A DNA stretch of 24,516 nt. It comes from a virus. Below are positions 3,900 to 17,060 of the stretch, one piece after another. Below the pieces are notes generated by a model. The model did not search any database and had not been told where the DNA came from. It saw only the letters and a list, made by a program, of their open reading frames with translations. Location: positions 1-24,516 of IMG/VR virus record IMGVR_UViG_3300025131_000407; one strand, written 5' to 3'. The translations under genes were made by a program, and so were the position numbers. Position 1 is the first letter of the stretch. The number at the start of each line of letters is the position of its first letter.

Positions 3900-4403
3900 C
3901 TAAATAGCAGCAGTAACCCAAATCGACCACGTAGGATAAATGCGAGAAACAGCCTCGTTAAAGAAATCTTGCAAGTTACAGATTTTATGTTTCTTAGTTT
4001 TTAAGTTTAAGAACAAAAACTTGTAATTGCTTTTAAGTGTTTCTGCGTTTTCCTTTTCTTTTTGTGTTAAGGTAAAGCCTAGCCCCGTAAAATCCTCTCC
4101 GATATTTTTTCGTCTATCCTTTCCCGCTGTTTTTAGCTCAAACAACGTGGGGCATCCCTTGGTTGGGATAGATTTGATTAACTCACTTCGGTTGTTGAGC
4201 AGCCCCTCCTCTCCCTTTTTGATCAGATCAAACGCTCTATGATTAACAATTTTCCCATGATGAGCGAAAGCGGAAACAATGTTATCCCTCTGTTTTGGGG
4301 TAGGTCGGATGTATCCTAGATCACAAAGAACCTCCCAAGAGTCTTGCTCGCCTTGCTTCCCAGCTTCGTAACCCGTAACTGCTTTTGTCCTGGTCTTTTC
4401 CAT
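3900..4403 (-). CDS. putative nuclease-like protein with E-x-K motif, 167 aa
   Basis: Start taken at MEKTRTKAVTGYEAG because the ATG falls 6 bases below the -10, exactly as at two other early promoters; a frame-compatible ATG 18 bases upstream lies inside the promoter. The middle contains LFELKTAGKDRRKN, in which E-x-K followed by basic residues resembles the active-site strand of PD-(D/E)xK nucleases; an upstream acidic partner could be the Glu or Asp of RAFDLIKKGEEG. The C-terminal part contains GLGFTLTQKEKENAE, a FLFLNLKTKKHK strand and a YPTWSIW end. The family may be related to restriction-type nucleases, but I cannot name it. The only gene between repeats C and D. Confidence 0.7.
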   Translation of the reverse strand: MEKTRTKAVTGYEAGKQGEQDSWEVLCDLGYIRPTPKQRDNIVSAFAHHGKIVNHRAFDLIKKGEEGLLNNRSELIKSIPTKGCPTLFELKTAGKDRRKNIGEDFTGLGFTLTQKEKENAETLKSNYKFLFLNLKTKKHKICNLQDFFNEAVSRIYPTWSIWVTAAI

Positions 4404-4409
4404 GTGTAT

Positions 4410-4438
4410 ATGATCAGGCATTTGGCGTAGAGTTTCAA
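4410..4438 (-). promoter_or_regulatory. early promoter, weak -10 (leaderless start)
   Basis: The minus strand reads TTGAAA (4433-4438), 17-nt spacer, GATCAT (4410-4415), ATACAC, ATG. Spacing is identical to the promoters at 3785 and 5214, and ATACAC is shared, but the hexamer matches TATAAT at only four positions, so this may need an activator. Confidence 0.6.
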
Positions 4439-4518
4439 GCCTTTTTACAAAAAACTTTGAAGCTTAAGTTGTTAGTATTACTAGCTTTATGGTGAAATTC
4501 CCGGCGACCCCCCGCTAT
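4439..4518 (-). repeat. operon-boundary repeat, copy D
   Basis: Core CCATAAAGCTAG at 4481-4492, followed on the minus strand by TAATACTAACAAC, AAAGTTTTTTGTAAAAAGG and TTGAAA. It is preceded by a GC block containing GGGGGGTCGCCGGG directly after the stop of the 35-aa gene. Confidence 0.8.
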
Positions 4519-4626
4519 TCAGTCCGCAAGTACCCTATTGATGAGCCTACGCAAACCCTTGGAGATGCCAGGGCGAGCGAGCATTTTCTTGAGAGCTGCA
4601 ACCAACTTTTCGTCTTTAGTCTTCAT
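4519..4626 (-). CDS. 35-residue basic helical peptide
   Basis: ATG at 4624-4626, downstream of the terminator-like hairpin; an AAAGGG about 15 bases upstream is too far to be a convincing Shine-Dalgarno sequence. The sequence starts MKTKDEKLVAALKKMLARP and ends LRRLINRVLAD. It is basic, Leu-rich and probably helical. KLVAA superficially resembles a tmRNA proteolysis tag, but the frame continues 25 residues beyond it. Function unknown; it could be spurious. Confidence 0.4.
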   Translation of the reverse strand: MKTKDEKLVAALKKMLARPGISKGLRRLINRVLAD

Positions 4627-4650
4627 GCTAGTATTAAACACCCTTTGAAA

Positions 4651-4733
4651 GAAAAAAGCAAGATAAAACATCGAATCCTGTCGTGATTCCTAGCTGGCCA
4701 AGCTAGACAACAGCAGCAGATGTTTTATCTTGC
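4651..4733 (-). terminator. long-stem Rho-independent terminator after the second tRNA-like RNA
   Basis: The minus strand carries a perfect 15-bp inverted repeat: GCAAGATAAAACATC (4719-4733) and its complement (4658-4672), immediately followed by a run of six T. The 46-nt loop can fold further by CTGTTGT/ACGACAG and CTAGCT/AGCTAG, or alternatively by GAATC/GATTC. The repeat begins 5-6 bases after the 3' end of the tRNA-like RNA, so it probably ends that transcript. The stem is AT-rich and unusually long, and may also be processed. Confidence 0.65.
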
Positions 4734-4738
4734 AGTAA

Positions 4739-4852
4739 TGAAGAAGCAGCGGGGATTCGAACCCCGTGCTATGCCAACCCTCACTTGCGTCCCCCTGTGC
4801 GAACAGGTTCGGTGTGGATTGTCGCAGTGCATAGCAAAGCCATATCTGCAAC
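4739..4852 (-). ncRNA. second tRNA-like RNA with possible pseudoknot
   Basis: The minus strand holds a canonical T arm CGGGG-TTCGAAT-CCCCG (4750-4766), followed by acceptor strand CTGCTTC (4743-4749) and TTCA, not CCA. Directly before the T arm, GCATAGCA (4767-4774) pairs with TGCTATGC (4829-4836), as tmRNA helix 2 does. A GGCTTTGC stretch and GTTGCAG (4846-4852) precede this helix in the order expected for a D-like region and acceptor strand, but GTTGCAG pairs with CTGCTTC at only 5 of 7 positions. The 54 nt inside the helix fold a perfect hairpin CCTGT-TCGC-ACAGG, and CAATCC/GGGTTG and TGCG/CGCA would cross as a pseudoknot. No cloverleaf fits. It is layout-equivalent to the RNA at 632-716. 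Confidence 0.45.
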
Positions 4853-4857
4853 CTACG

Positions 4858-5121
4858 TTAGCTGTCTCTCAAGTGGTCGTATCGGTCGTATTCATCTACA
4901 ACGTTATCAGGTTCATCATCCATGAAAAGTTCGCCTACCAAACCGTGGCTCTCAGCCATGTCCTCTAGTTCTTGGTCAGAAGGTAGGTCTTTTGGTGGAG
5001 CATCTACAAGGTGAGCATGATGATCATCATAGACCCAAACCATATTGGGCTCGCAGAACTCACAATACTCTGTGAACTGAAGCGCACCACAGCGGAGACA
5101 AGCGTTGTTTTGAATTTTCAT
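4858..5121 (-). CDS. Zn-ribbon acidic protein, 87 aa
   Basis: The ATG overlaps the TGA of the upstream 29-aa gene (ATGA). The N-terminus holds two Cys pairs, CLRCGALQFTEYCEFC (residues 9-24), a compact zinc-ribbon or zinc-knuckle arrangement. The rest is acidic, with DDHHAHLVDAPP and a C-terminus rich in Asp/Glu. Metal binding by the four Cys is likely from pattern; the partner is unknown. The tRNA-like RNA starts a few bases after its stop, so both are on one transcript from the promoter at 5214-5242. Confidence 0.75.
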   Translation of the reverse strand: MKIQNNACLRCGALQFTEYCEFCEPNMVWVYDDHHAHLVDAPPKDLPSDQELEDMAESHGLVGELFMDDEPDNVVDEYDRYDHLRDS

Positions 5122-5207
5122 CTTGAGAGTGCTTCTCCGATCTTGTAGATACAGACAAACATGAAAAGGCCAAAGAGTCCGTAGCAGATGTAAGCTATAA
5201 TTTCCAT
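5118..5207 (-). CDS. 29-residue membrane peptide at the head of the early operon
   Basis: The ATG lies 6 bases below the -10 of a promoter with no room for a Shine-Dalgarno sequence. MEIIAYICYGLFGLFMFVCI is one hydrophobic span, followed by a short charged tail (YKIGEALSR). The ATGA overlap with the Zn-ribbon gene indicates coupling. Probably an inner-membrane peptide expressed at the onset of infection; function unknown. Confidence 0.55.
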   Translation of the reverse strand: MEIIAYICYGLFGLFMFVCIYKIGEALSR

Positions 5208-5213
5208 TTGTAT

Positions 5214-5242
5214 ATTAGAGCATATTCGGAAAACATTTTCAA
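5214..5242 (-). promoter_or_regulatory. leftward early promoter (leaderless start)
   Basis: The minus strand reads TTGAAA (5237-5242), 17-nt spacer, TCTAAT (5214-5219), ATACAA, ATG. It has the same geometry and nearly the same -10 to ATG sequence as the promoter at 3785. It is the rightmost early promoter and faces away from the repeat arrays. Confidence 0.8.
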
Positions 5243-5281
5243 GCCTTATCAAAGTTTTTTATGTCTCATTGGTGTCCCAAC

Positions 5282-5326
5282 GATGTAACGCCCCAGGATG
5301 TAACATGATGTAACATGATGTAACAA
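5282..5326. repeat. tandem 10-nt repeat array in the divergent control region
   Basis: GATGTAAC occurs at 5282, 5297, 5307 and 5317; the last three are head-to-tail copies of GATGTAACAT, so they recur on one face of the helix. The array lies about 40-110 bp upstream of the leftward promoter. It could be an operator or an origin iteron set; the sequence does not decide. Confidence 0.7.
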
Positions 5327-5565
5327 TGTTGTCGGAAACTTTCGCGTAAATGAGCCTCTGCCATATTGGCACCCGAGCCACGTCCTGTAAAGAATATTAT
5401 TATTAGGGACTCCTAAAAATTTTGAGACTCCTATTAAATTTGGGACTCCTAAATAATAAAGGGACCAAAAAATGAGAACACTCTTCTTGCTGTGGCTATA
5501 ATAGAAATTAAGAACAGAAAGCTTAGTAAAGTTATCTGGACCTACGATCCCTAAATAATATTGAT
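5327..5565 (+). promoter_or_regulatory. divergent control region, rightward side
   Basis: Together with 5208-5326 this is the longest gene-free stretch (about 360 bp). Besides the two arrays it holds GCCA-TAT-TGGC (small inverted repeat) near 5363 and TATAATAG at 5497-5504 without a credible -35. CTAAATAATATTGATATG runs into the first rightward start. The motif TATAATA also stands before several other rightward genes, so this is a candidate rightward start site. No RNA gene seen. Confidence 0.45.
5406..5466. repeat. 18-nt tandem repeat array
   Basis: GRGACTCCT begins at 5406, 5424 and 5442, exactly 18 bases apart, each followed by an A/T-rich half containing TAAA. A fourth partial unit GGGACC starts at 5461. 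CTAAATAATA from the last unit reappears directly before the 216-aa gene. Possible operator or origin element. Confidence 0.7.
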
Positions 5566-6216
5566 ATGAATAAAACTTACGAAAAAATAACCGAATTGCT
5601 TTTATCAGAAGTTAAGAGATCTTTCCAATCAACACAGCAAAAGAAGACAGCACGAGAGAGGAAAAGAGCAGCAACAGCGCAAAAACTAATAAAAAAAGGT
5701 GGTCATGTTGGTGGAGTCCATGTAAGTCCAGAAGCAATGAAGCATCTTACAACTAGAGGGCAAGGGTCTCAATCTACAGAAGCTCCAGGTGTAGGGGTTG
5801 TAAGACAACTAAAATTAGCAGGCAAGAAACATAGAAAAGATCAAGTTTCTGTAACTGCTCCTCATCGTAAACCTGTAGGGCATGAATTGGTTAGACCTAA
5901 ATCTGAGATTCCCTCATCTGACGTAACTAAAACCACTACTACAACAAAACCTGAAAGGGGAGAGGATATTTCTGTTCCTAAAGTTCATACTGATAAACCT
6001 TTATCTCATTATGCTACTACTAAAGGAACTTCGATTGCAGTAAAGAAGGATCCTAAATTTATGGCTCCAAGAGGACGTAAGGAAAGGAAAAGAGCTTACA
6101 AAAAAAGAACTACGGGGCATACTTTAATAACTCAGTTCCCTGGTAGGTCTGCACCTCCTGCATCTCAATGGGGAAAATCAGGTCACGTTGTTATAAAGCC
6201 TAAAGGCACTCCGTAG
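5566..6216 (+). CDS. basic putative internal head protein with capsid-targeting-like N-terminus, 216 aa
   Basis: The N-terminus MNKTYEKITELLLSEVKRS matches the shared leader of the genes at 6713 and 7266, and resembles the capsid-targeting peptide of T4 internal proteins (MKTYQEFIAE type), which the head protease cuts after L/I-x-E. The body is strongly basic and low in hydrophobics, with KKTARERKRAATAQ, RGRKERKRAYKKRT and a Thr run (residues ~125-131). It looks disordered and suited to packing with DNA. No Shine-Dalgarno sequence precedes the ATG. First gene of the rightward set. Inferred role: packaged into the head and possibly injected with DNA; the enzyme activity, if any, is unknown. 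Confidence 0.7.
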   Translation: MNKTYEKITELLLSEVKRSFQSTQQKKTARERKRAATAQKLIKKGGHVGGVHVSPEAMKHLTTRGQGSQSTEAPGVGVVRQLKLAGKKHRKDQVSVTAPHRKPVGHELVRPKSEIPSSDVTKTTTTTKPERGEDISVPKVHTDKPLSHYATTKGTSIAVKKDPKFMAPRGRKERKRAYKKRTTGHTLITQFPGRSAPPASQWGKSGHVVIKPKGTP

Positions 6217-6218
6217 AT

Positions 6219-6692
6219 ATGAAATTTAAATTTTTGACCGCCGCCTTATTGATTCTGACCTCTTGTGGAGGAAAATCCAACAGTAAGCCTAAAACTCCCC
6301 TTCCACCAGTGTCAGAAGTAGTATTAGTTGACTATAAGCCACTGAAAGGTCTTCACATGCCCCTGACGCACTTTCTAAGGCACGATAATTTAAAAAGGGT
6401 ATCTAAGGTCTATTATTTACAGGAGCTTGTAGACACCTCTTCTTGGCTCTCCTTCAAGAATTCTCGTTTAGGTAAGAACTTGATCGGAGCTATGTTCAAA
6501 AATAATGACATGAACAAAGATTTGTATCTATGGTTTGTCCTGCAAATGACACCTACCGAGCAAGTTGAATACAGCCTGGAATTGACTCAACAAGGTCTTC
6601 GTTACGTTGGGTACGAGACTTTGAAGATAGGGGATGAGGAAGAAACCAAGCTTGGTGTTACTTTTAAAAAATATGAGTCTGGGGATAGTTAA
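6219..6692 (+). CDS. lipoprotein, 157 aa
   Basis: Begins MKFKFLTAALLILTSCGGKS: a basic n-region, a short hydrophobic core and a lipobox LTSC with Cys16, so it should be lipidated and membrane anchored. A Pro/Lys-rich linker (KPKTPLPPVS) precedes a soluble domain with mixed helix/strand that has no recognised motif. It starts two bases after the stop of the 216-aa gene, between putative internal head protein genes. Phage lipoproteins often block superinfection, which fits but is not demonstrated here. Confidence 0.8.
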   Translation: MKFKFLTAALLILTSCGGKSNSKPKTPLPPVSEVVLVDYKPLKGLHMPLTHFLRHDNLKRVSKVYYLQELVDTSSWLSFKNSRLGKNLIGAMFKNNDMNKDLYLWFVLQMTPTEQVEYSLELTQQGLRYVGYETLKIGDEEETKLGVTFKKYESGDS

Positions 6693-6712
6693 TAAAACTA
6701 TATAATTGTACT

Positions 6713-7264
6713 ATGAATGAAACCTACGGAAGAATAGCGGAAGTGATGTTAGAAGCTAAAAAGCTTGAACCATTTAATCCTTATAAAAGAGAGGAACGTG
6801 GTAGCGATTGGGGGAAAGATCCATGGATTAGCATCCCTCCAACAAAATCAAATCCAACAACAGCAAAACCAAAACCAAAACCAAAAAGAGGCTCTATAGT
6901 AAAAAGGCTATTTAGAATCCTAAAATCAAAAATAAAATCAAAAAATGAGAATAGCACCTATCCTACTTACAGTAGATTGGCGGAGTTGATGTTTGAGGCC
7001 ACTTTAGTGGAAGGTAAGAAGTATCCTGGTGCTGATTCCGACTTGAGTCGATTCCCAGTTCATCCTAGAAAAATCGCCCAGGCGATTGAGCAAGGGTGGA
7101 AGAAGAAAGCTACGAAGAAGAAAGCTAAGAAGAAGAAAGCTAAGAAGAAGACAGCGAAGAGAGTCAGAAAGGGGAGGGATCCAACGGGGATCGATGATTC
7201 GGGGAGTAAGCGAACGCAAGGTGGCGAAGCTCCGACTGGGGAAGACTATAGCGTAGGGATTTGA
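6713..7264 (+). CDS. basic putative internal head protein with two targeting-like segments, 183 aa
   Basis: N-terminus MNETYGRIAEVMLEAKKLE is the shared leader. A second related segment, TYPTYSRLAELMFEATLVEG, occurs at about residues 82-101, where the DNA also resembles the start of the 7266 gene (a shared GGCGGAGTTG and TTTGAGGC). The gene therefore looks like two head-protein genes fused in frame. The C-terminal part has an H1-like tail of KKKAKKKK type, encoded by 15-nt DNA repeats around 7105-7160. TATATAATTG stands just before the ATG without a Shine-Dalgarno sequence. DNA-binding inside the capsid is inferred from the charge. Confidence 0.7.
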   Translation: MNETYGRIAEVMLEAKKLEPFNPYKREERGSDWGKDPWISIPPTKSNPTTAKPKPKPKRGSIVKRLFRILKSKIKSKNENSTYPTYSRLAELMFEATLVEGKKYPGADSDLSRFPVHPRKIAQAIEQGWKKKATKKKAKKKKAKKKTAKRVRKGRDPTGIDDSGSKRTQGGEAPTGEDYSVGI

Positions 7265-7265
7265 T

Positions 7266-7958
7266 ATGAACGAAACCTACGAAAGAATGGCGGAGTTGTT
7301 ATTTGAGGCAGAACTTCTAGCTGAAGGTAGAAGGTGGGAAGCGGTTAAGAAGTTTGGTAGAGGGGTAAAGAAAAAGGTAGGAAAAGTTGCCCGCGCAGCG
7401 GCTGTAACTGGTGCTGTTGCTCTTGGTACGGGAGGAGAGGGGACGGCTCAAGACATTAAGCCAAAATCTCGGGATCCTTGGACTCCAACTACGACTAAGA
7501 AAACGGTACAACAAGAAAAGAAACCCGCCGAGTTTCGTGGTCTTGGACGCACGTTTAAGACTCATGCTGAAAGAAGTGCTGCGGGAAAAGCTAAACTAAA
7601 AACAGATTTGGCAAAAGTTGATAAGGCTCACGATGTTAAAGACGCAGCGCAGGAGGCCGAATTCGATAAAGCTCATGCGAAGGCAAAAAAACAGCAAAGC
7701 CAAATACCCGAGCCTCTAAAGAAGACTGGCAAGGAAATTGATGTCACCACAATGGACCCTGAAAAATACCTTAAGACTAGAAAGAAGTCGAGTACGGAGG
7801 AATTGCTTGATACAACGCTCAAAAACGTTCCGGTGTCACTGCGGAAAAGTAAAGAGAAACCTACTATAAAGCTTCCAAAGAAAGCAAGCGGTCCAAAAAC
7901 GCCCCCGGCAGGCGAAGGAAAGCCCCCACGGGGTGGCGGATGGAAATTGCAGAAATAA
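7266..7958 (+). CDS. basic putative internal head protein, 230 aa
   Basis: The leader MNETYERMAELLFEAELLAE is followed by a basic helix (FGRGVKKKVGKVARAA), a short Ala/Gly/Val-rich segment (residues ~42-58) and a long Lys-rich, probably disordered body with several DPxxY-type and PKK repeats, ending GGGWKLQK. LLAEG would fit a T4-type L-x-E cleavage site. It starts one base after the stop of the previous gene. The Ala/Gly/Val stretch could be a membrane-inserting or amphipathic helix used on ejection; this is speculation. Confidence 0.7.
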   Translation: MNETYERMAELLFEAELLAEGRRWEAVKKFGRGVKKKVGKVARAAAVTGAVALGTGGEGTAQDIKPKSRDPWTPTTTKKTVQQEKKPAEFRGLGRTFKTHAERSAAGKAKLKTDLAKVDKAHDVKDAAQEAEFDKAHAKAKKQQSQIPEPLKKTGKEIDVTTMDPEKYLKTRKKSSTEELLDTTLKNVPVSLRKSKEKPTIKLPKKASGPKTPPAGEGKPPRGGGWKLQK

Positions 7959-7963
7959 CTAAT

Positions 7964-8041
7964 GTGAACGAAACCTACGGAGGTGAAACCTACGGAGGTT
8001 TGTTATTTTTCTCTTTCCACTTTTCTAACTCATCCTCGTGA
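7964..8041 (+). pseudogene. remnant of a fourth capsid-targeting leader
   Basis: GTGAACGAAACCTACGGAGG repeats the start of the 6713 and 7266 genes at DNA level, then a 15-nt unit (GAAACCTACGGAGGT, 7970-7984) is duplicated exactly (7985-7999). The frame loses similarity afterwards and stops at 8041, running antisense into the minus-strand 72-aa gene, whose stop codon lies in the duplicated unit. It looks like the scar of a deleted or recombined head-protein gene. Confidence 0.55.
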
Positions 8042-8224: not shown

Positions 8225-8704
8225 TTAGTACATAAACTGAACTCTCAAGGCATTAGTTCCACGAAGCCTATCACACATAGAACCAGATCCAGGTTGTATT
8301 AACCTGAATACTTGGAGTCTTACTGCTTCCCCCACAAGAATAGGATCAATAGGAATGTGAAAACTATAAGGAGGACCAGTATTTCGGGTATTGAAAATTG
8401 GGAGCATCACGATGGGTGGGACTAGTAACCATCTATCTAATAGATGTGCAGGGTGATTTGAATACCAACAAATATTCGCACGAACTGCTACATCAGGTCC
8501 GAAAACTACAATCTCTTCCCCCCTCTCACCTACATCCCAATGCCACATTACAGTAATACGAGATCCTAATTTAGGAGGGGGTTGCTCTGGGACGGTGTTG
8601 AGCTGTCCTCCAGGGTTCTTAGTATATCCGAAAAGAGTTATTTGTGAAGCTAACCCTGTGCTAAGGAGAACAACTGCCAATGTGTTTCTAAACCAATTCA
8701 TCAT
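8225..8704 (-). CDS. exported protein of unknown function, 159 aa
   Basis: N-terminus MMNWFRNTLAVVLLSTGLAS is a signal peptide with a cleavage-like LAS end or an uncleaved anchor. The mature part has several Pro-rich loops, short beta strands (ITVMWHWDVGERGEEIVVF) and two separated Cys, likely a disulfide in the periplasm. Its ATG overlaps the TGA of the protease gene (ATGA), so the two are coupled and may work together, for instance as protease partner or substrate. No family recognised. Confidence 0.7.
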   Translation of the reverse strand: MMNWFRNTLAVVLLSTGLASQITLFGYTKNPGGQLNTVPEQPPPKLGSRITVMWHWDVGERGEEIVVFGPDVAVRANICWYSNHPAHLLDRWLLVPPIVMLPIFNTRNTGPPYSFHIPIDPILVGEAVRLQVFRLIQPGSGSMCDRLRGTNALRVQFMY

Positions 8705-9447
8705 CTTCTCCAGTTGTTACTAACAGAAAGATCTTCCGATATAGTATTTACTACTGTATGACGGAAAATATTTGATGGAACTATTTCGTGCATATGCCCA
8801 ATATATGACGAGGATAATCCATTGTTAATAACGTAAACTCTACTTGTTATCCCTACGACTTTTCCAGTCCTCAATGAGATAACAGGTCCACCCGAATTAC
8901 CTGGAACGGCGGGAGCGGTTATTAGCCACAAACCTTTAAATAATGATTGCCTGATAACCTTCCCCTCAGTAATCATTAAGGGTTCCCCAAAGGGGCATCC
9001 AACTGATACCACCTCTTCCATAAATTTAGGCGGATTTTTAGATATTTCTATAAATGGGATGTAAACAGAAGATCTAGCTTTTACCACCGCAAAGTCGATG
9101 GAAGCGTCTATATAAACTGTTTTCACTTTAGTAAGGGTTAAAGTTACAGTACGTGATATCTCCCAGTTATTCTCTGGGCGGGAATAAAACTCTATTTTTT
9201 TGGGAGTTGCGTCTCTTACTACGTGAGCAGCAGTGACGAAATAATTTATATAGAGATTCCCTTTTACCTCTTCTGCATACACTGGGAAGACTGTTCCAAG
9301 GATCTCTCTTCCCGTATAATCTTCAAGAGATATTTTAGCTGCTGAAGTTAAAACTCGATTCGAGATATCGAGCTTTTGTTCTCCCCCTGCATTCGGATGA
9401 AGGCAAGAGGCTAGAAAAACCAGCGCAAGGCTTGCTAAGTATTTCAT
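8701..9447 (-). CDS. membrane-anchored trypsin-like serine protease (lipoprotein), 248 aa
   Basis: Lipobox LASC with Cys15 after MKYLASLALVF indicates a lipoprotein. The chymotrypsin/Deg-type catalytic triad is visible: His75 in FVTAAHVV, Asp118 in SIDFAVV, and Ser185 in PGNSGGPV, with normal spacing. There is no PDZ domain: the protein ends about 60 residues after the Ser. It should sit in the periplasm on a membrane. Phage-encoded lipoprotein proteases are unusual; a role in host envelope modification, superinfection exclusion or host-factor degradation is possible. No Shine-Dalgarno sequence; TAAATACTTATAG directly precedes the ATG, as at other start-adjacent promoters here. Confidence 0.88.
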   Translation of the reverse strand: MKYLASLALVFLASCLHPNAGGEQKLDISNRVLTSAAKISLEDYTGREILGTVFPVYAEEVKGNLYINYFVTAAHVVRDATPKKIEFYSRPENNWEISRTVTLTLTKVKTVYIDASIDFAVVKARSSVYIPFIEISKNPPKFMEEVVSVGCPFGEPLMITEGKVIRQSLFKGLWLITAPAVPGNSGGPVISLRTGKVVGITSRVYVINNGLSSSYIGHMHEIVPSNIFRHTVVNTISEDLSVSNNWRR

Positions 9448-9572: not shown

Positions 9573-10073
9573 ATGTCCGAAAGAAATACGTTAAGAAGTT
9601 TTTGCAAGTTAGCTGCTGTACCTAACGGGGCTTATGTTGATATGGATTTTAGGGATACAGCAGGAAGCATAATTAATTGCAACTGGTTTCGTGTTGATTG
9701 TAGTGCTGCTCCTGTAAAAGATGTTGCTTATTATATTGTCTCACCTTCGGCACTCAGTGGTCACGGTGGAGAGAACATTGAGCAAATGTATCAACAAGGT
9801 ACATCATCAATAAGTGTTGTTTCTGCTGCTTCTGCTGGCCCTACCAAGCGCGATCACACTTCTTCGGGGATTGGCGGTTTAATAGGTATACCAGGAAGAG
9901 ATCCTGTAGAGATGAATGTGAGGTCTAGGGATAGAGCAGCGGTTAGGGGAGTAAGGATTTGGAACCTTACAAACTCGCATCCCCATGCGTTATTCACTCT
10001 TACTTACGGCAATATTAAGCATGCTAACAGACTCAAAGACAACGATGATATTTTTTGGCCTCCAGGTGTTTAA
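9573..10073 (+). CDS. probable virion/decoration protein, paralogue 1, 166 aa
   Basis: Starts MSERNTLRSFCKLAAVPNG and is clearly related to the next gene throughout, including AYVDMDFRDTAG, CSAAPVKDVAYYIV, IGIPGRDPVEMN and the near-identical end (TYGNIKHANRLKDNDD, then WPPG). It is beta-rich with no signal peptide and few charged clusters, as in small phage capsid-decoration or tail proteins. It lacks the roughly 30-residue insert seen in its neighbour between GGxxxE and SGIGG. Function inferred from neighbourhood and beta character only. Confidence 0.7.
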   Translation: MSERNTLRSFCKLAAVPNGAYVDMDFRDTAGSIINCNWFRVDCSAAPVKDVAYYIVSPSALSGHGGENIEQMYQQGTSSISVVSAASAGPTKRDHTSSGIGGLIGIPGRDPVEMNVRSRDRAAVRGVRIWNLTNSHPHALFTLTYGNIKHANRLKDNDDIFWPPGV

Positions 10074-10075
10074 TT

Positions 10076-10675
10076 ATGGTTGAAAGAAATACGTTAAGAT
10101 CTTATTGTAAACTTGCTACTGTATCTAACGGGGCTTATGTTGATATAGAGTTTACAGACACAGCAGGTAACAAGCTTAGATGTAATTGGTTTAGTGTCGA
10201 TTGCAGTGCTGCTCCTGTAGCAGATGTTGCTTATTATATTGTTACTCCTTCTGGCAGTGGTGACAGGAATCTTTCGGCAGATAAACCAGGGGACTCACTT
10301 TATACTGGGTTTGCTTCGGCAATAGACGTTATTGCTAATGCCTCTTCTGGCCCTACTTACACTGATGATGGGATGGGGAATATTACTGTTTCTTATTTAC
10401 TTCAGAATACTGCCTCTGGTATTGGCGGGGTAATAGGCATACCAGGAAGAGATCCTGTAGAAATGAATTGGTATAGGAAGGCGGCGACCGATTCTGTGGT
10501 GGCGGAGGTTGAGGGCGATGTAGCGGCAAAGCGATCAGGGGTGCCTATAGGAGTGAGAATTTGGAACCTTACAAAATCTCATCCTCACGCTTTATTCACT
10601 GTTACATACGGCAATATTAAGCATGCTAACAGACTCAAAGACAATGATGACACTTATTGGCCCCCTGGAGATTAG
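10076..10675 (+). CDS. probable virion/decoration protein, paralogue 2, 199 aa
   Basis: ATG at 10076, two bases after the stop of paralogue 1; this start aligns its MVERNTLRSYCKLATV with the neighbour's N-terminus, whereas an open extension to 10055 does not. Compared with paralogue 1 it has extra segments around TYTDDGMGNITVSYLLQ and after DPVEMN (a polar, Ala/Val-rich loop). The C-terminus is nearly the same (TYGNIKHANRLKDNDD). The DNA also remains similar at both ends, indicating a fairly recent tandem duplication or strong selection. Confidence 0.7.
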   Translation: MVERNTLRSYCKLATVSNGAYVDIEFTDTAGNKLRCNWFSVDCSAAPVADVAYYIVTPSGSGDRNLSADKPGDSLYTGFASAIDVIANASSGPTYTDDGMGNITVSYLLQNTASGIGGVIGIPGRDPVEMNWYRKAATDSVVAEVEGDVAAKRSGVPIGVRIWNLTKSHPHALFTVTYGNIKHANRLKDNDDTYWPPGD

Positions 10676-11728: not shown

Positions 11729-13276
11729 ATGGACCAAAAAAAGATAATTGAAGAATTCAAAAAGTGTAGCAGGGATCCTGTTCATTTTATTTGTAATTAT
11801 ATTAAAGTTACTCACCCCGTTCGCGGGTTAGTAAAATTTGATCTATATCCTTTCCAGAAGAGGATTATAAAGAACCTAGGTGAGCATAGATTTAATATGC
11901 TCAGGAAATTTAGGCAAGCAGGATGCACTACAATAGCCTCTGCTTATGCTCTGTGGACAGGCGTTTTTAATAAGTATCAAACTATACCTATCATCTCCAA
12001 AGGCGATCAGGAGTCCACTGAAGTCCTAGAAAGAATAAAGCTTATGTACGATGAGCTTCCTGAGTTTTTAAAGCCAGGGATTGAGGAGGATAATAAACAT
12101 ACTTTGAAGCTAAAGAATGGTTCCGTAATTAGATCTAGAGCCTCAGGAAAACAATCTGGTAGATCTCTTGCTGGTTCTCTTTTAATAGTAGATGAGGCTG
12201 CATTTATTGAGAATATTGAAACTATTTGGGCTGCTGTGTATCCAGTTATCTCCACTGGAGGTAGAGCCTTCATTCTCTCTACAGTCAACGGCATTGGTAA
12301 TTGGTTCCATGACATGTATCAGGGAGCAATTAATAAGGAGAATTCTTTCAACCCTATTGACATTAGGTGGAAGGAACATCCTGAATATATGAGACAAGAA
12401 GGTTACGATAACTTGTATGAGTTTATGAGTAGTCTCGATACTCCGCTTAATGTGGACGAATGGGAAGATATTACGAAATCTAATATATCTCCTAGAAAAT
12501 GGCTTCAGGAATATGAATGTGAATTTTTAGGTACTGGTGAAACCTATATCGACGGTGAGATTTTGACCAACGCTAAGAACAATACCAGTGAGGATTTTTA
12601 TATAAAATACAATAATAGGATGCGGGTGTGGAAAGATCCCTTCCCTGCTTATGATTATGTATTAGCTGCTGATGTATCTCTAGGGAGAGGTCGAGATTAC
12701 TCAGCATTCCAGGTTATAAACATGTATAATGGGGAGCAGGTTGCAGAGTTCTACTCAAATAGTACCCCAATCAACGAATTTGCAAAAATTATAGCAACTG
12801 AGGGGAGCTTGTACAATACTGCACATGTGATAACCGAAAGAAATACCATTGGAAATAATTTAATCGATTGGCTGTTCAACTCTCTAGAATATGAAAATCT
12901 TTGGTCTGATGATAAGGGTGTCGCGGGATATCAAGTTACCCATACAAACAGAGAAGTTCTTTTGGCTGATCTGGAGGAGTCCGTTCGCACTGCCATAATT
13001 AAAATAAATTCAGAGAGGACGATTGATGAATTATTTACTTTTGTTGTAAAAGAAAATGGGAAAGCGGAGGCTGAAGAGGGGCATCATGATGATCTCGTTA
13101 TGAGTTTGGCATTAGCTGTCCACGGTCTTAACTCTATAATGGATAAGACTACTATAGAACATATAAGAGCTACTAATATTAATAAGCCGTTGGCCCCTGT
13201 TAGCACAACTAAATATAGAGTGAAGACAAGCTTTGATGGTATGACTGAGGAAGACATAAGATGGTTGATGAAATAG
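11729..13276 (+). CDS. terL: terminase large subunit (T4 gp17-like), 515 aa
   Basis: The DNA-packaging motor: ATPase plus headful nuclease. A Walker A-type segment RKFRQAGCTT (59-68) replaces the classical GxGKT, as in T4 gp17-like enzymes. Walker B LLIVDEAAF carries D155 and E156, and a coupling motif STVNG lies at 184-188. The RNase H-like nuclease domain shows D315 (LAADVSLG), E370 (VITERN) and D454/D455 (HHDDLVMS), the usual acidic metal site. At 515 residues it is somewhat shorter than T4 gp17. No small terminase gene is recognised in the window. It overlaps the portal gene by 16 bases and lacks a Shine-Dalgarno sequence. Confidence 0.97.
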   Translation: MDQKKIIEEFKKCSRDPVHFICNYIKVTHPVRGLVKFDLYPFQKRIIKNLGEHRFNMLRKFRQAGCTTIASAYALWTGVFNKYQTIPIISKGDQESTEVLERIKLMYDELPEFLKPGIEEDNKHTLKLKNGSVIRSRASGKQSGRSLAGSLLIVDEAAFIENIETIWAAVYPVISTGGRAFILSTVNGIGNWFHDMYQGAINKENSFNPIDIRWKEHPEYMRQEGYDNLYEFMSSLDTPLNVDEWEDITKSNISPRKWLQEYECEFLGTGETYIDGEILTNAKNNTSEDFYIKYNNRMRVWKDPFPAYDYVLAADVSLGRGRDYSAFQVINMYNGEQVAEFYSNSTPINEFAKIIATEGSLYNTAHVITERNTIGNNLIDWLFNSLEYENLWSDDKGVAGYQVTHTNREVLLADLEESVRTAIIKINSERTIDELFTFVVKENGKAEAEEGHHDDLVMSLALAVHGLNSIMDKTTIEHIRATNINKPLAPVSTTKYRVKTSFDGMTEEDIRWLMK

Positions 13277-15120
13277 ACAAGAATAACATAATTGAAGAAG
13301 GTTACACCGAATTCGGTGGCGGATCTAGTAGAGGATCCTGGTTCTTCTATCCAGTGGGAAGGCTAGGGAGATTCTTCGCTAAATTCTTTGCTACTAAAGC
13401 CCAACCTGAGGTTGCGCGACAATTTTCAGATGATCCTGATACCCTTGAAAGACCTCTCAGCGGTGATACGGTTGTAAGTAACGAAGTTATTAAGTTACAA
13501 AAACCCGAAACAGATCCTGCTGCATTTTCCGTATCCAGAGGCAGTCTTCCTATTTTACCTGAAATTGAGGTCAACAGAAAAAGAAGGTATAAAGAGTATG
13601 AGGGTATGGATGAATACCCTGAAGTTGGAGCTGCATTTGACATCTATTCTGATGATAGCTCTCAAAAGAATATAGACAATAAAAGATGGGAAGTCGTAAC
13701 GGACGATGAGCTGGCCAAGAAAGAGGTCGAAAAGCTATTTACCAATATAAAATTGGATAGATTTTACTGGGATATCATACGAAATACAGTTAAGTACGGA
13801 GACTGTTTTATTGAGCTAATTGTTGACTTGGATAACCCTAAGGCGGGTGTCAACAGAATAAAAATTCTTAACCCTAATTATATCCTCAGGGTAGAGAATG
13901 AATATGGGTATCTCACTGATTTCCTTCAAGAAATTCCAGATAAGACTGATTGGGATACCTATGGGGTTCAAGGCGAATTTATGAAGGGGAGAAAGTATAT
14001 CGAGCTTGATAGGAATCAAATCGTTCATTTCAGGCTTCATACTTCTGATCCCCTATACTATCCTTACGGCAAATCTATCGCTGCCCTGGCAAGACAGATC
14101 TTCAGGTCTCTAAAATTGATGGAAGATGCTATGTTGATTTACCGTCTAACAAGAGCCCCAGAGAGGCGGATATTTTATATTGACGTTGGTCAGCTTCCTT
14201 CTACTAAAGCAGAAATGTTTATTGAGAGGCTTAAAGAAAAGTTTAAGAAAGAAAAATTCTTTGATGCCAACAAAGGGCAAATCGATGCAAGATATAATCC
14301 TCTCAGTGCTGATGAGGATTTCTTTGTTCCCAGTAGGGGTGGCAGTGGTACGAAGATCGAAACCCTTCCTGGTGCTCAGAACTTGGGAGAGGTTGACGAT
14401 GTTAAATATTTCAGGGATAAGCTCCTTGCGGCTCTAAAGATTCCAAAAGACTACATTGTGGAGAAAGAGCAGTCCCCAGAAAGAAAAGCCAATCTTTCAC
14501 AGTTGGATGTTAAGTTTGCAAGAACAATCGCTAGAATTCAACACAGTATAGAGGTTGGCTTAGAGTCTGCCGCGAAAAGGCATCTGAAGATCAAGGGTTT
14601 TTCTGATTCTGTAATAAAGGATCTTAGAATTGAGCTTCCCGATCCATCTGATATGTTTACCAAAAGAAAGCTAGATGTTGACGAACAGAAGGCTAGAGTG
14701 GTACAGGCAATCTTAGGACTTCAAATATTCTCTAAAAAGAAAATTTACAGAGATTACTATAATTTAAATGAGAATGAGATTAAAGAAATCGAGAAGGAAT
14801 TGGAAGAAGAGATGAAGGAACAGATGGATCAACAAATGGAACAACAGCAAGCTATGATGGATCCAATGGGCGGTGGAGCACCTATGGGTGGAGCACCTAT
14901 GCCCCCTGGAGGGGGAGGGCAACCAATGGCAGGCCCAGGGCCTATGGAAGCAGGAGGTCAGGAGCCAGCGGAGAATGTTCCCCCTACAGCAGAGGCGACA
15001 TCCAGGGTGGAGACTTTGAAAAAGCTTCGAGATAAATTAATTTTAGATAACAGAAATGGTGAAGTGGCTAAGGTTACAAAGATGATCTTAAGAGAAGAAA
15101 ATAAGAATAATAACATTTAG
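13261..15120 (+). CDS. portal protein (T4 gp20-like), 619 aa
   Basis: Forms the ring at the head vertex through which DNA is packaged. Family features: YPEVGAAFDIYSDDSS (~115-130), KYGDCFIELI, a long wing/stem region with RAPERRIFYIDVG (~295-308), GGSGTKIETLPGAQNLG (~360-376) and KIPKDYIVEKEQSPE. The C-terminus (about 500-619) is an unusual Met/Gln/Gly/Pro-rich low-complexity stretch followed by a short charged helix (TLKKLRDKLI), a feature the T4 portal lacks. It starts inside the end of the terminase gene, so the two are translationally linked. Confidence 0.92.
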   Translation: MVDEIDKNNIIEEGYTEFGGGSSRGSWFFYPVGRLGRFFAKFFATKAQPEVARQFSDDPDTLERPLSGDTVVSNEVIKLQKPETDPAAFSVSRGSLPILPEIEVNRKRRYKEYEGMDEYPEVGAAFDIYSDDSSQKNIDNKRWEVVTDDELAKKEVEKLFTNIKLDRFYWDIIRNTVKYGDCFIELIVDLDNPKAGVNRIKILNPNYILRVENEYGYLTDFLQEIPDKTDWDTYGVQGEFMKGRKYIELDRNQIVHFRLHTSDPLYYPYGKSIAALARQIFRSLKLMEDAMLIYRLTRAPERRIFYIDVGQLPSTKAEMFIERLKEKFKKEKFFDANKGQIDARYNPLSADEDFFVPSRGGSGTKIETLPGAQNLGEVDDVKYFRDKLLAALKIPKDYIVEKEQSPERKANLSQLDVKFARTIARIQHSIEVGLESAAKRHLKIKGFSDSVIKDLRIELPDPSDMFTKRKLDVDEQKARVVQAILGLQIFSKKKIYRDYYNLNENEIKEIEKELEEEMKEQMDQQMEQQQAMMDPMGGGAPMGGAPMPPGGGGQPMAGPGPMEAGGQEPAENVPPTAEATSRVETLKKLRDKLILDNRNGEVAKVTKMILREENKNNNI

Positions 15121-15164: not shown

Positions 15165-17060
15165 ATGTTGACACACGTTTTGCATGGCAGAAATAATAAA
15201 CTATCTCTTTTGTTAAAGCTAGGCGACTGCCTAGGAAGGTCGTTGAGGGAAAACATAGAGATGTTCTCCGTAGATGACTCTAAAGTTACCTATCTTAGCG
15301 AGTCTGGTAAGCTTATTCGAGGCTCTTATTCCCTAGGGAATGATGTTATCTTAGAGAATATTGAACTAGAAGACTCTGATCTTTTCGAAAATCATAAGAA
15401 ATACAATGATTTTGTAAGCAGTAACGTAACTAATCTAGTAAGAGATCTTTACGGAAATGATTACTCTAAGGCTGAATCTGATTTTTCTGACCTGTTGTCA
15501 ATTTGGGAGCAACGTCTTAAGTTTGACAAGATAAAGAAGAAACTTCATGAGAAGCAAGATAAATTTAATGAGACTATAAAGATTATTGATACTCCTGAAT
15601 TCTCCCGTCTTTTGGAGTCCACAAAGAATATTGCAGACCATCTGAAGGCTAACTTTGAAAAGATTGAAAACATTCAAGAGATCAAAAATGCTGTAAAATT
15701 GTCTAATACCGTGTCTACAGCTTTTGATTTCCCAAGATTATCATATAAGTCTTTGGCGGAAGGAGGGAGCTACAAGCTGAAGGATGGGAACCAGAAATCC
15801 ATATACGATATGGTCTGTCAGCAAGAGTTAATCCAAAAAGAGCTTCTAGAAGCTAGGGACAATTTTGAAGTTATTTGGGCTTCTAATAATAAAGTTAATG
15901 AGCTTTGCGGATACCTGTTCAATCCAGATGAGAAAAGCCTTATGAAGGCTATGAGTGAGGCTATTAGTGAGATTCCTTATTTGGCCTTAGCTTCCAAGAA
16001 GCAACTAGCTAAGGTTGTCAATAACTCCCTGGCTCTGAATGAATCAGTTGCCATTACTGATAAGGAGCTTAGAAGCTTTGTTTCCAAACTCTTCGAAATG
16101 AAGAAGCCCATAAAAGAATCTATTATTAAGGTTCTTAATGAGAAGTATGGAATTAATGTTAATACTTTAAAGGATACCCCTTCATTTAAGAATCTGCTTA
16201 ATACTCAAGTCGTGATCTTTGAGTCTCTCGCTAGAGTTTGCCCCAAGAACTCTGTAAACCGAAACGTCTTGTCTGAGATGTCTACAATGCTGAAGAATAA
16301 GAACGGTGTTGAGGCAATTGATGTTAATGATTATCTTTGTGCTGTTTTTGGGAGCATTGGATTTACAGACATGATCTCTGAGGCTAACATGCTGAGATAT
16401 TTGGATACCTCCAAGTTAGGTGACGAACTTAAGCAGGTTGGGGATTTGTTATCGCAAATGGGTGGAGGCGGAGCGGGTGATCCTATGGCTGGTGGCGGCG
16501 CGGGTGATCCTATGGCTGGTCAACCCCCTAACGCCGAAGATCAATACCCATCTGACGAAACTTTAGGTGGAGAAGGGTCTATGGATGCTCAAGGTGCTGC
16601 TGATGCTGCGAATGCAGAGTTTGATCAGGAAGCCGAGGAGGCACAACTGGGCCAAGGTGATCAACAAGGTGCTGATCTCCCACCAGATGGTGCTCCTCCT
16701 GAGGAGGGGATGCCTCCAGAAGAAGAGGAGGCCCCTGCTGAGGAAGTCCCTCAAGATGAGCTAGTGGCAAATATTGATAAACTCCACGATCTGTTAGCTG
16801 ATTTGACTGGAGAGATTGCCGCTGCAAAGGAAGCTGCTGGGGAAGAGGGGATGGAAGAAGAGGTTCCTGAGGAAGAGGGGATGGAAGAAGAGGTTCCTGA
16901 GGAAGAAGCTCCTGAGGAGGAGCTTGATCCCGTAGGTCAAGAAGATGAGGATGTTGATAACGATGGGGATGTAGATGATAATGATTCTTATCTCAAGAAT
17001 CGTCGAGACACAAGATCGAAAGCGATAAAAGGTAAGAAAAAAGGGAACCCCCACTACTGA
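15165..17060 (+). CDS. putative head scaffold/core protein with acidic Ca-binding-like tail, 631 aa
   Basis: Preceded by TAGGAG and by TATATAAAAAATA. N-terminal ~420 residues are mainly helical and charged with no recognised enzyme motif. Residues ~430-600 are low complexity: GGGAGDPMAG repeats, then Glu/Pro-rich repeats (EEGMEEEVPE) encoded by an exact 30-nt tandem duplication (16841-16870 and 16871-16900). The tail has DEDVDNDGDVDDNDSY, an EF-hand/dockerin-like loop, then a basic end (RDTRSKAIKGKKKG). In T4 the gene after the portal encodes core components; acidic repeats and position make a scaffold or prohead core role plausible, but homology is not established. Confidence 0.6.
   Translation: MLTHVLHGRNNKLSLLLKLGDCLGRSLRENIEMFSVDDSKVTYLSESGKLIRGSYSLGNDVILENIELEDSDLFENHKKYNDFVSSNVTNLVRDLYGNDYSKAESDFSDLLSIWEQRLKFDKIKKKLHEKQDKFNETIKIIDTPEFSRLLESTKNIADHLKANFEKIENIQEIKNAVKLSNTVSTAFDFPRLSYKSLAEGGSYKLKDGNQKSIYDMVCQQELIQKELLEARDNFEVIWASNNKVNELCGYLFNPDEKSLMKAMSEAISEIPYLALASKKQLAKVVNNSLALNESVAITDKELRSFVSKLFEMKKPIKESIIKVLNEKYGINVNTLKDTPSFKNLLNTQVVIFESLARVCPKNSVNRNVLSEMSTMLKNKNGVEAIDVNDYLCAVFGSIGFTDMISEANMLRYLDTSKLGDELKQVGDLLSQMGGGGAGDPMAGGGAGDPMAGQPPNAEDQYPSDETLGGEGSMDAQGAADAANAEFDQEAEEAQLGQGDQQGADLPPDGAPPEEGMPPEEEEAPAEEVPQDELVANIDKLHDLLADLTGEIAAAKEAAGEEGMEEEVPEEEGMEEEVPEEEAPEEELDPVGQEDEDVDNDGDVDDNDSYLKNRRDTRSKAIKGKKKGNPHY

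Follow-up and report, generated by a model that had tools for sequence, protein, structure and literature searches.

The internal proteins IPI–IPIII of phage T4 are injected into the host, where they inhibit type IV restriction enzymes (PMC3012670, PMC12373910), and each bears a capsid targeting sequence (CTS) processed by gp21. In the T4 CTS, Tyr4 and Phe7 serve targeting and residues 8 and 10 processing (PMC9026906), and T4 propeptides run to 10–20 residues (PMC5694885). Ip1–Ip3, which inhibit the type IV restriction enzyme GmrSD, are recognised by a common leader on bodies that are otherwise unrelated (PMC12373910). The same holds for three genes lying between positions 5566 and 7958 of a 24,516-base virus record (IMG/VR record IMGVR_UViG_3300025131_000407), analysed over its whole length and called here the window. 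These genes probably encode internal head proteins of the T4 kind, targeted to the prohead by their leaders, processed by gp21, and delivered with the DNA; nothing in the analysis points to a restriction target like that of Ip1–Ip3.

The likeness to IPI–IPIII consists in a short common N-terminal leader on unrelated basic bodies, several genes per phage, the presence of gp21 in the lineage, and a leader in which a Tyr is followed three positions on by a hydrophobic residue and which terminates in hydrophobic-x-Glu (PMC9026906). The window leaders have Tyr5 and Ile/Met8, an aromatic and then a hydrophobic residue three on, as in Tyr4/Phe7 of T4. They differ from the leader of IPIII, which has 10 residues, in being 14–15 residues long and of different sequence, and in this lineage, unlike T4, the leader also recurs within proteins and on the protease.

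A sequence-only reading of the window had named three open reading frames (ORFs) with a shared leader; its coordinates are exact, and the three do share the leader MN[KE]TY..[IM].E...E. It had overlooked an internal copy of the leader, a decayed copy, and a leaderless ORF, which are listed here with the three genes.

5566–6216, + strand: putative cargo protein 1, 216 residues, starting MNKTYEKITELLLSEV; leader MNKTYEKITELLLSE, one residue longer than the other leaders; basic body, predicted disordered
6219–6692, + strand: lipoprotein-like ORF, 157 residues, amid the cargo genes; signal peptide and LTSC lipobox (by eye); leaderless; no family
6713–7264, + strand: putative cargo protein 2, 183 residues, starting MNETYGRIAEVMLEAK; two leader copies
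6956–7003, + strand: second copy of the leader, TYPTYSRLAELMFEAT, within cargo protein 2, then LVEG; a profile match
7266–7958, + strand: putative cargo protein 3, 230 residues, starting MNETYERMAELLFEAE; leader MNETYERMAELLFE, with LLAE/G behind it as a second candidate site
7963–8010, + strand: decayed fourth leader (GTG AAC GAA ACC TAC ..), containing an internal repeat; stop after about 25 codons

Scored pairwise, the leaders of the three proteins reach 51, 40, and 37 and their bodies 34, 23, and 20. The same measure applied to T4 as a positive control gives 54 for the leader and 20 for the body of IPII/IPIII, and only 25 and 27 for both pairs with IPI. (Random pairs reach 37 in 30 of 60,000 cases, a count contaminated by true orthologues with short bodies and for that reason not used as a p-value.) The three leaders are related copies, because the DNA match of each pair (6713/7266, 5566/6713, and 5566/7266) beats every one of 1000 shuffles; the decayed leader at 7963 likewise matches the leader at 7266 better than any of 1000. 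A profile made from the three N-terminal leaders alone gives the internal leader 24.0 bits, the next match in the window 10.3, and the best match elsewhere 19.3. Two AlphaFold models, used only for the helix at the leaders, are of low confidence (mean predicted local distance difference test score 58.7 and 66.0, predicted template modelling score 0.27 and 0.36); in the one of the 183-residue protein, made from a single sequence, the helices at 3–16 and 86–99 coincide with its two leaders. The hydrophobic moments of the leaders are unexceptional, 97 to 1305 of 5000 shuffles being as high.

As for the bodies, body scores, charge, and disorder-type composition bear out the earlier description of them as divergent, rich in Lys and Arg, and apparently disordered. 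Cargo proteins 1–3 have isoelectric points of 10.8, 10.2, and 10.0, net charges of +31, +25, and +23, and Lys/Arg contents of 21.8, 25.1, and 23.0 percent, and their bodies are predicted to be disordered; all three are among the 40 of 881 ORFs (at least 100 residues, 20 contigs) that pass a filter for basic and disordered composition. They match family libraries (E up to 0.1) weakly only (PF14376, 0.056, below its cut-off; phrog_27321, 0.076), no close homologue of cargo proteins 1 and 3 was found in viral_contigs, and neither the cargo region nor cargo protein 3 has a match among 50,697 phage records. Family libraries and phage records gave no match of note pointing to T4 IPI, IPII, or IPIII, no direct comparison with the T4 proteins being made, and DNA patterns of the window-type leader were found in neither viral_contigs nor genome_contigs.

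The leader belongs to a motif, [YW]xx[IM][GA]xx[LI]xE, that is widespread in this phage lineage. The window is a fragment of a T4-like phage, encoding (by family library scans) a gp17-type terminase, a gp20-type portal, a DNA helicase, a baseplate-hub-like protein, a primase, and an exonuclease. Two of these genes are listed here.

11729–13276, + strand: gp17-type terminase large subunit (family library scans), which places the phage among T4-like phages
13261–15120, + strand: gp20-type portal (PF07230, 9.1e-81; phrog_213, 3.3e-84), the anchor for finding relatives

The portal has relatives in 177 IMG/VR stretches, of which the best 80 were used (L001–L080), up to 98% identity; the annotated portals that ranked best, those of Microcystis phage Mel-JY01 and Flavobacterium phage immuto, share less than 40% identity with it. 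Thirty portal-bearing records were searched for head genes. An S77 prohead protease (gp21-type) and a gp23 capsid protein are present in all four that exceed 60 kb (G001–G004), and neither was found among the other 26, each shorter than 36 kb.

Scanning for gp21 produced 32 loci, at which the usual order is an acidic protein, a protein of about 165 residues, a basic protein of about 140 residues, gp21, often a variable basic gene, a gp22-like scaffold, and gp23 (the labels gp22, gp24-like, and neck are assigned from gene position, not from family search). The variable head genes of the lineage gave no family match in the scans made; a weak match of a G001 basic protein to phrog_8742 (0.0024) was set aside. 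In our own reading of the capsid protein, all 20 distinct sequences have (L/I/M/V)xE just before a conserved stretch (L, I, or M in 19, V in one), a site that lies where T4 gp23 is cut, and the mature capsid protein is expected to start in that stretch. The protein of about 140 residues, also by our own reading, has (L/I/M)xE|(A/G) at an aligned place in 15 of 17 cases (one has F, one is shifted). An (L/I)xE|(G/S) pattern near the N-terminus of gp21 was not counted as a cut site, since it sits in a predicted beta strand.

The motif occurs densely in gp21 itself. In this lineage the C-terminus of gp21 is drawn out into a basic, hypervariable tail, ranging from almost none to about 650 residues and carrying up to three motif copies (described for the ORFs of L113, L115, L117–L122, L125–L127, and L131); an example is STSYQRIGDLMAEALGL in L121, to be compared with NETYERMAELLFEAELL in the window. 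Nineteen tails, 4268 residues in all, contain 18 matches to the motif, distributed over 11 of the 19, whereas the mean for shuffled tails is 0.045, none of 2000 shuffling runs giving more than 1. The density comes to 4.2 per 1000 residues in the tails versus 0.15 in the 881 ORFs of the 20 contigs. (These are 19 of the 32 gp21 loci; not counted, for being near-copies, truncated, or distant, were L110, L111, L116, L123, L128, L129, L132–L135, L137, L139, and L140.)

Beyond the protease, the motif occurs on further proteins. Three neighbouring ORFs of G003 have leaders (IGESIWDTYKNMAYLLSE, IAESMWNTYKGLASFIYE, and IGESIWNIYRSMAYVIAE) on unrelated, basic bodies; near the terminase there is one leader in L049 and there are two in G002, which also has related helices in two proteins beside gp21. 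A profile made from the copies of the window, G003, L049, and G002 finds two copies in one protein of G031 and new copies in basic, variable proteins whose genes separate the gp24-like gene from the neck gene (L119 and L125, the L125 match being the weakest, 16.6 bits, below the best reversed-sequence match of 19.0). The motif is found as well in variable basic proteins whose genes, in relatives, stand between gp21 and gp22, and one protein of L195 has three copies. Set aside were matches in a protein next to the portal in some relatives (TNPTIRKLAALVFED and the like), put down to chance in a conserved domain because by eye the pattern is missing from the window's own protein; N-terminal repeats of low complexity; and the MKFGDID array of L032 and L034. 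This last is an observation in its own right: four ORFs of L034 (1451–3870) and two of L032 have a common N-terminus, MKFG[DN][IV]...., and partly diverged bodies, the sequence being unrelated to the leader.

The cargo genes of the window stand outside the head cluster, as do those of G003 and G031. In these last two phages they occupy an equivalent place (G003 4262–5443, L098; G031 15174–16166, L141), between two pieces of an apparently split DNA polymerase gene, so that the place is a preferred insertion site. Several of the cargo proteins that do lie in head clusters (L119 5849, L125 16215, and L193 4473–5438) open with a common domain, MPLT.KG.KIMA.M..QYG..KG..VFYASKNKG.I.GV, ahead of the leader motif.

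To connect the window with the wider motif, a profile was made from 43 copies, none of them from the window. Over all six frames of the window it ranks the leaders at 6719 and 7272 and the internal leader at 6962 first to third (16.3, 14.7, and 11.2 bits; the next match has 7.3). Reversed loci (2.32 Mb) predict 0.07 matches of at least 14 bits per window, the best null match being 17.3. The aromatic residue (Y, W, or F) is present in 43 of the 43 copies and the hydrophobic one (I, M, L, V, or F) in 42, the copies having been chosen partly for pattern; since some were picked by a regular expression requiring (I/L/M)xE, the terminal residues of the motif do not count as independent evidence here. 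The bridge between the window-type and gp21-tail-type motifs is the form found in G003 and G031, so that the link runs via intermediates. L191 and L193 have both forms within one protein. At the DNA level, the pattern GESIW[DN]TY occurs in 8 stretches of viral_contigs, all in the lineage by gene order (three are G031, G003, and L049), and TEY..IG..AE in 6 stretches, all in head clusters of the lineage (one is G003), and in none of genome_contigs. The 43-copy profile has no match of at least 14 bits in 50-kb stretches of T4, immuto, and Mel-JY01 (L188–L190).

The end of the motif would be the cut site. The window leaders terminate in (L/I/M)xE, like the capsid protein of the relatives. Of 26 occurrences of the first half of the motif, [YFW]..[ILM][GA], in gp21 tails, 18 continue to (L/I/M/V)xE, and of 29 in other cargo, 22 do so; among the ORFs of the 20 contigs the figure is 46 of 577. 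Some of the 29 belong to loci identified by a DNA pattern that already asks for AE. In a test independent of the motif, (L/I/M)xE[AGSK] falls within residues 7–28 of 22 of 35 basic, disordered proteins versus 103 of 745 others (p = 1.4e-10, a value too small because some of the 35 are mutual orthologues); without the window the count is 20 of 32, and the 5566 protein is a miss. This enrichment suits processing by a gp21-like enzyme, and cleavage of the window leaders would be expected after residue 14 or 15. Because the 43-copy profile ranks three of the window copies first to third, relatives have gp21 and gp23, and their capsid protein has the (L/I/M/V)xE site, capsid targeting and processing of the window proteins may be called well supported by inference. 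To that extent the sequence-only reading, which likened the leader to the head-targeting, gp21-cut leader of T4, is supported, given the motif in gp21 tails and in neighbours of head genes; the effector function it proposed is unsupported.

Several observations weigh against this account. The sequence-only reading had treated a genome lacking any prohead protease as a refutation, and although the large relatives all have the enzyme, search of the 24.5-kb fragment that is the window found no gp21; nor did our own reading of its ORF list find a capsid gene. A profile built from gp21 tails alone does not single out the window leaders, the two best scoring 9.9 and 9.1 bits versus 14.6 in the reversed window. 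The 43-copy profile misses the leader at 5566, because of its one extra residue. At the cut used, ORF pairs sharing a leader are limited to the window, G002, and G003 among the 20 contigs, so the clustered form is not universal; the other 17, most of them incomplete, have no leader-sharing cluster. Some motif copies are C-terminal (in gp21 of L113 and in a 248-residue protein of G003), where a cut would free no cargo. Finally, no late-promoter motif common to the capsid gene and the cargo genes was seen by eye in the 70-base stretches upstream.

Such C-terminal copies, and those within gp21 tails, suit another explanation, in which the basic proteins would be structural components of the prohead core, comparable to gp67 and gp68, and would be no cargo, since they are broken down and leave the head as it matures; the motif would then be a helix for core assembly or scaffold binding, whether or not it is cut. 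T4 gp22, gp67, and gp68 are indeed cut into short fragments that leave the head (PMC5694885), and in relatives such proteins are encoded next to gp21 and gp23 and have candidate (L/I)xE sites. The window genes, however, lie apart from the head cluster, vary in sequence, and show no similarity to the core proteins in family library scans, and bodies so variable, with no relatives found, suit accessory cargo better than conserved core parts; we consider the explanation unlikely. The gp21-tail copies could also be docking or pseudo-substrate elements that regulate the protease, mimicked by cargo merely to be cut. The motif does recur in the tails ahead of Glu sites, and the prohead protease of the giant phage SPN3US cuts its own C-terminus (PMC5694885), but 8 of the 19 tails of the lineage have no motif copy, and regulation of this sort seems quite unlikely.

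Perhaps the head is not involved at all: the basic proteins would bind nucleic acid and act in the infected cell, and their leader would be a helix for oligomerisation or localisation. Their high Lys/Arg content would fit, as would the fact that in the window, G003, and G031 the genes lie apart from the head cluster. The motif, however, occurs in gp21 tails and between head genes, its association with an (L/I/M/V)xE just after it is strong, and a role unrelated to the head is very unlikely. Last, a Lys-rich tandem stretch near 7100–7160, together with bodies in proteins 1 and 3 for which no homologue was found, might suggest that the three ORFs are no genes but open frames that arose by chance in repetitive, A-rich DNA. 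This is hardly credible of four consecutive ORFs on one strand, separated by gaps of 2, 20, and 1 bases, with leaders at three start codons that are related to motifs in other phages.

For the window proteins as internal head proteins we infer core binding, cleavage, packaging, and injection. The leader, about 14–15 residues forming a short helix with a Tyr and an Ile or Met three on, would dock the precursor onto the prohead core. A gp21-type protease would then cut after the leader-terminal (L/I/M)xE, and the mature remainder, basic and disordered, would stay with the packaged DNA and enter the next cell with it. Cargo protein 2 (6713–7264), having two leaders, would be a small cargo polyprotein, its precursor cut into at least two mature peptides. 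In relatives the leader module reappears in variable proteins whose genes stand between head genes, and again on the C-terminal tail of gp21. As to what the mature proteins do, DNA packing or charge neutralisation would be the simplest role and counter-defence a possible one. DNA-packing proteins are as plausible as effectors because the window bodies are predicted to be disordered, whereas mature T4 IPI has a compact fold (PMC3012670).

A broader proposal, somewhat less likely than not, is that the leader is a repeatable module, giving rise to cargo polyproteins of two or three leader-plus-peptide units and to a protease whose basic, hypervariable, leader-studded tail is itself cargo; the enzyme would thus bring its own substrates into the prohead and set them free by cutting itself. 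New in comparison with the T4 internal-protein system are, it appears, the tandem leaders, the internal leaders, and the leaders on the protease itself; no title concerning tandem leaders or gp21 tails was found in searches of the open-licence literature, where the motif is not searchable as text. The ejection proteins and prohead protease of the giant phages SPN3US and phiKZ offer a partial parallel, with head-protein propeptides cut after Glu, several sites per propeptide, and C-terminal autocleavage of the protease (PMC5694885, PMC9026906). Their propeptides, however, often exceed 100 residues and have a different cleavage motif, whereas in the present lineage it is a helix motif of 14 residues that is repeated along basic tails.

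Elsewhere in the window, about 750 bases downstream of the cargo genes and on the opposite strand, a trypsin-like serine protease is encoded at 8701–9447 (phrog_9683, 3.3e-11). Two tandem paralogous ORFs at 9573–10073 and 10055–10675 (+ strand), with [SV]ERNTLRS[FY]CKLA.., are alike along their whole length.

With the leader motif as a handle, head cargo can be sought by sequence in a group of uncultured phages in which the variable head genes gave no family match in the scans made. The motif also offers a testable account of the unusual gp21 tails and of the highly variable basic genes that lie between head genes. If the account is true, then the cargo-loading signal of T4-like phages would be a repeatable linear motif, one that may be internal or borne by the protease, and this would bear on how sets of injected proteins evolve.

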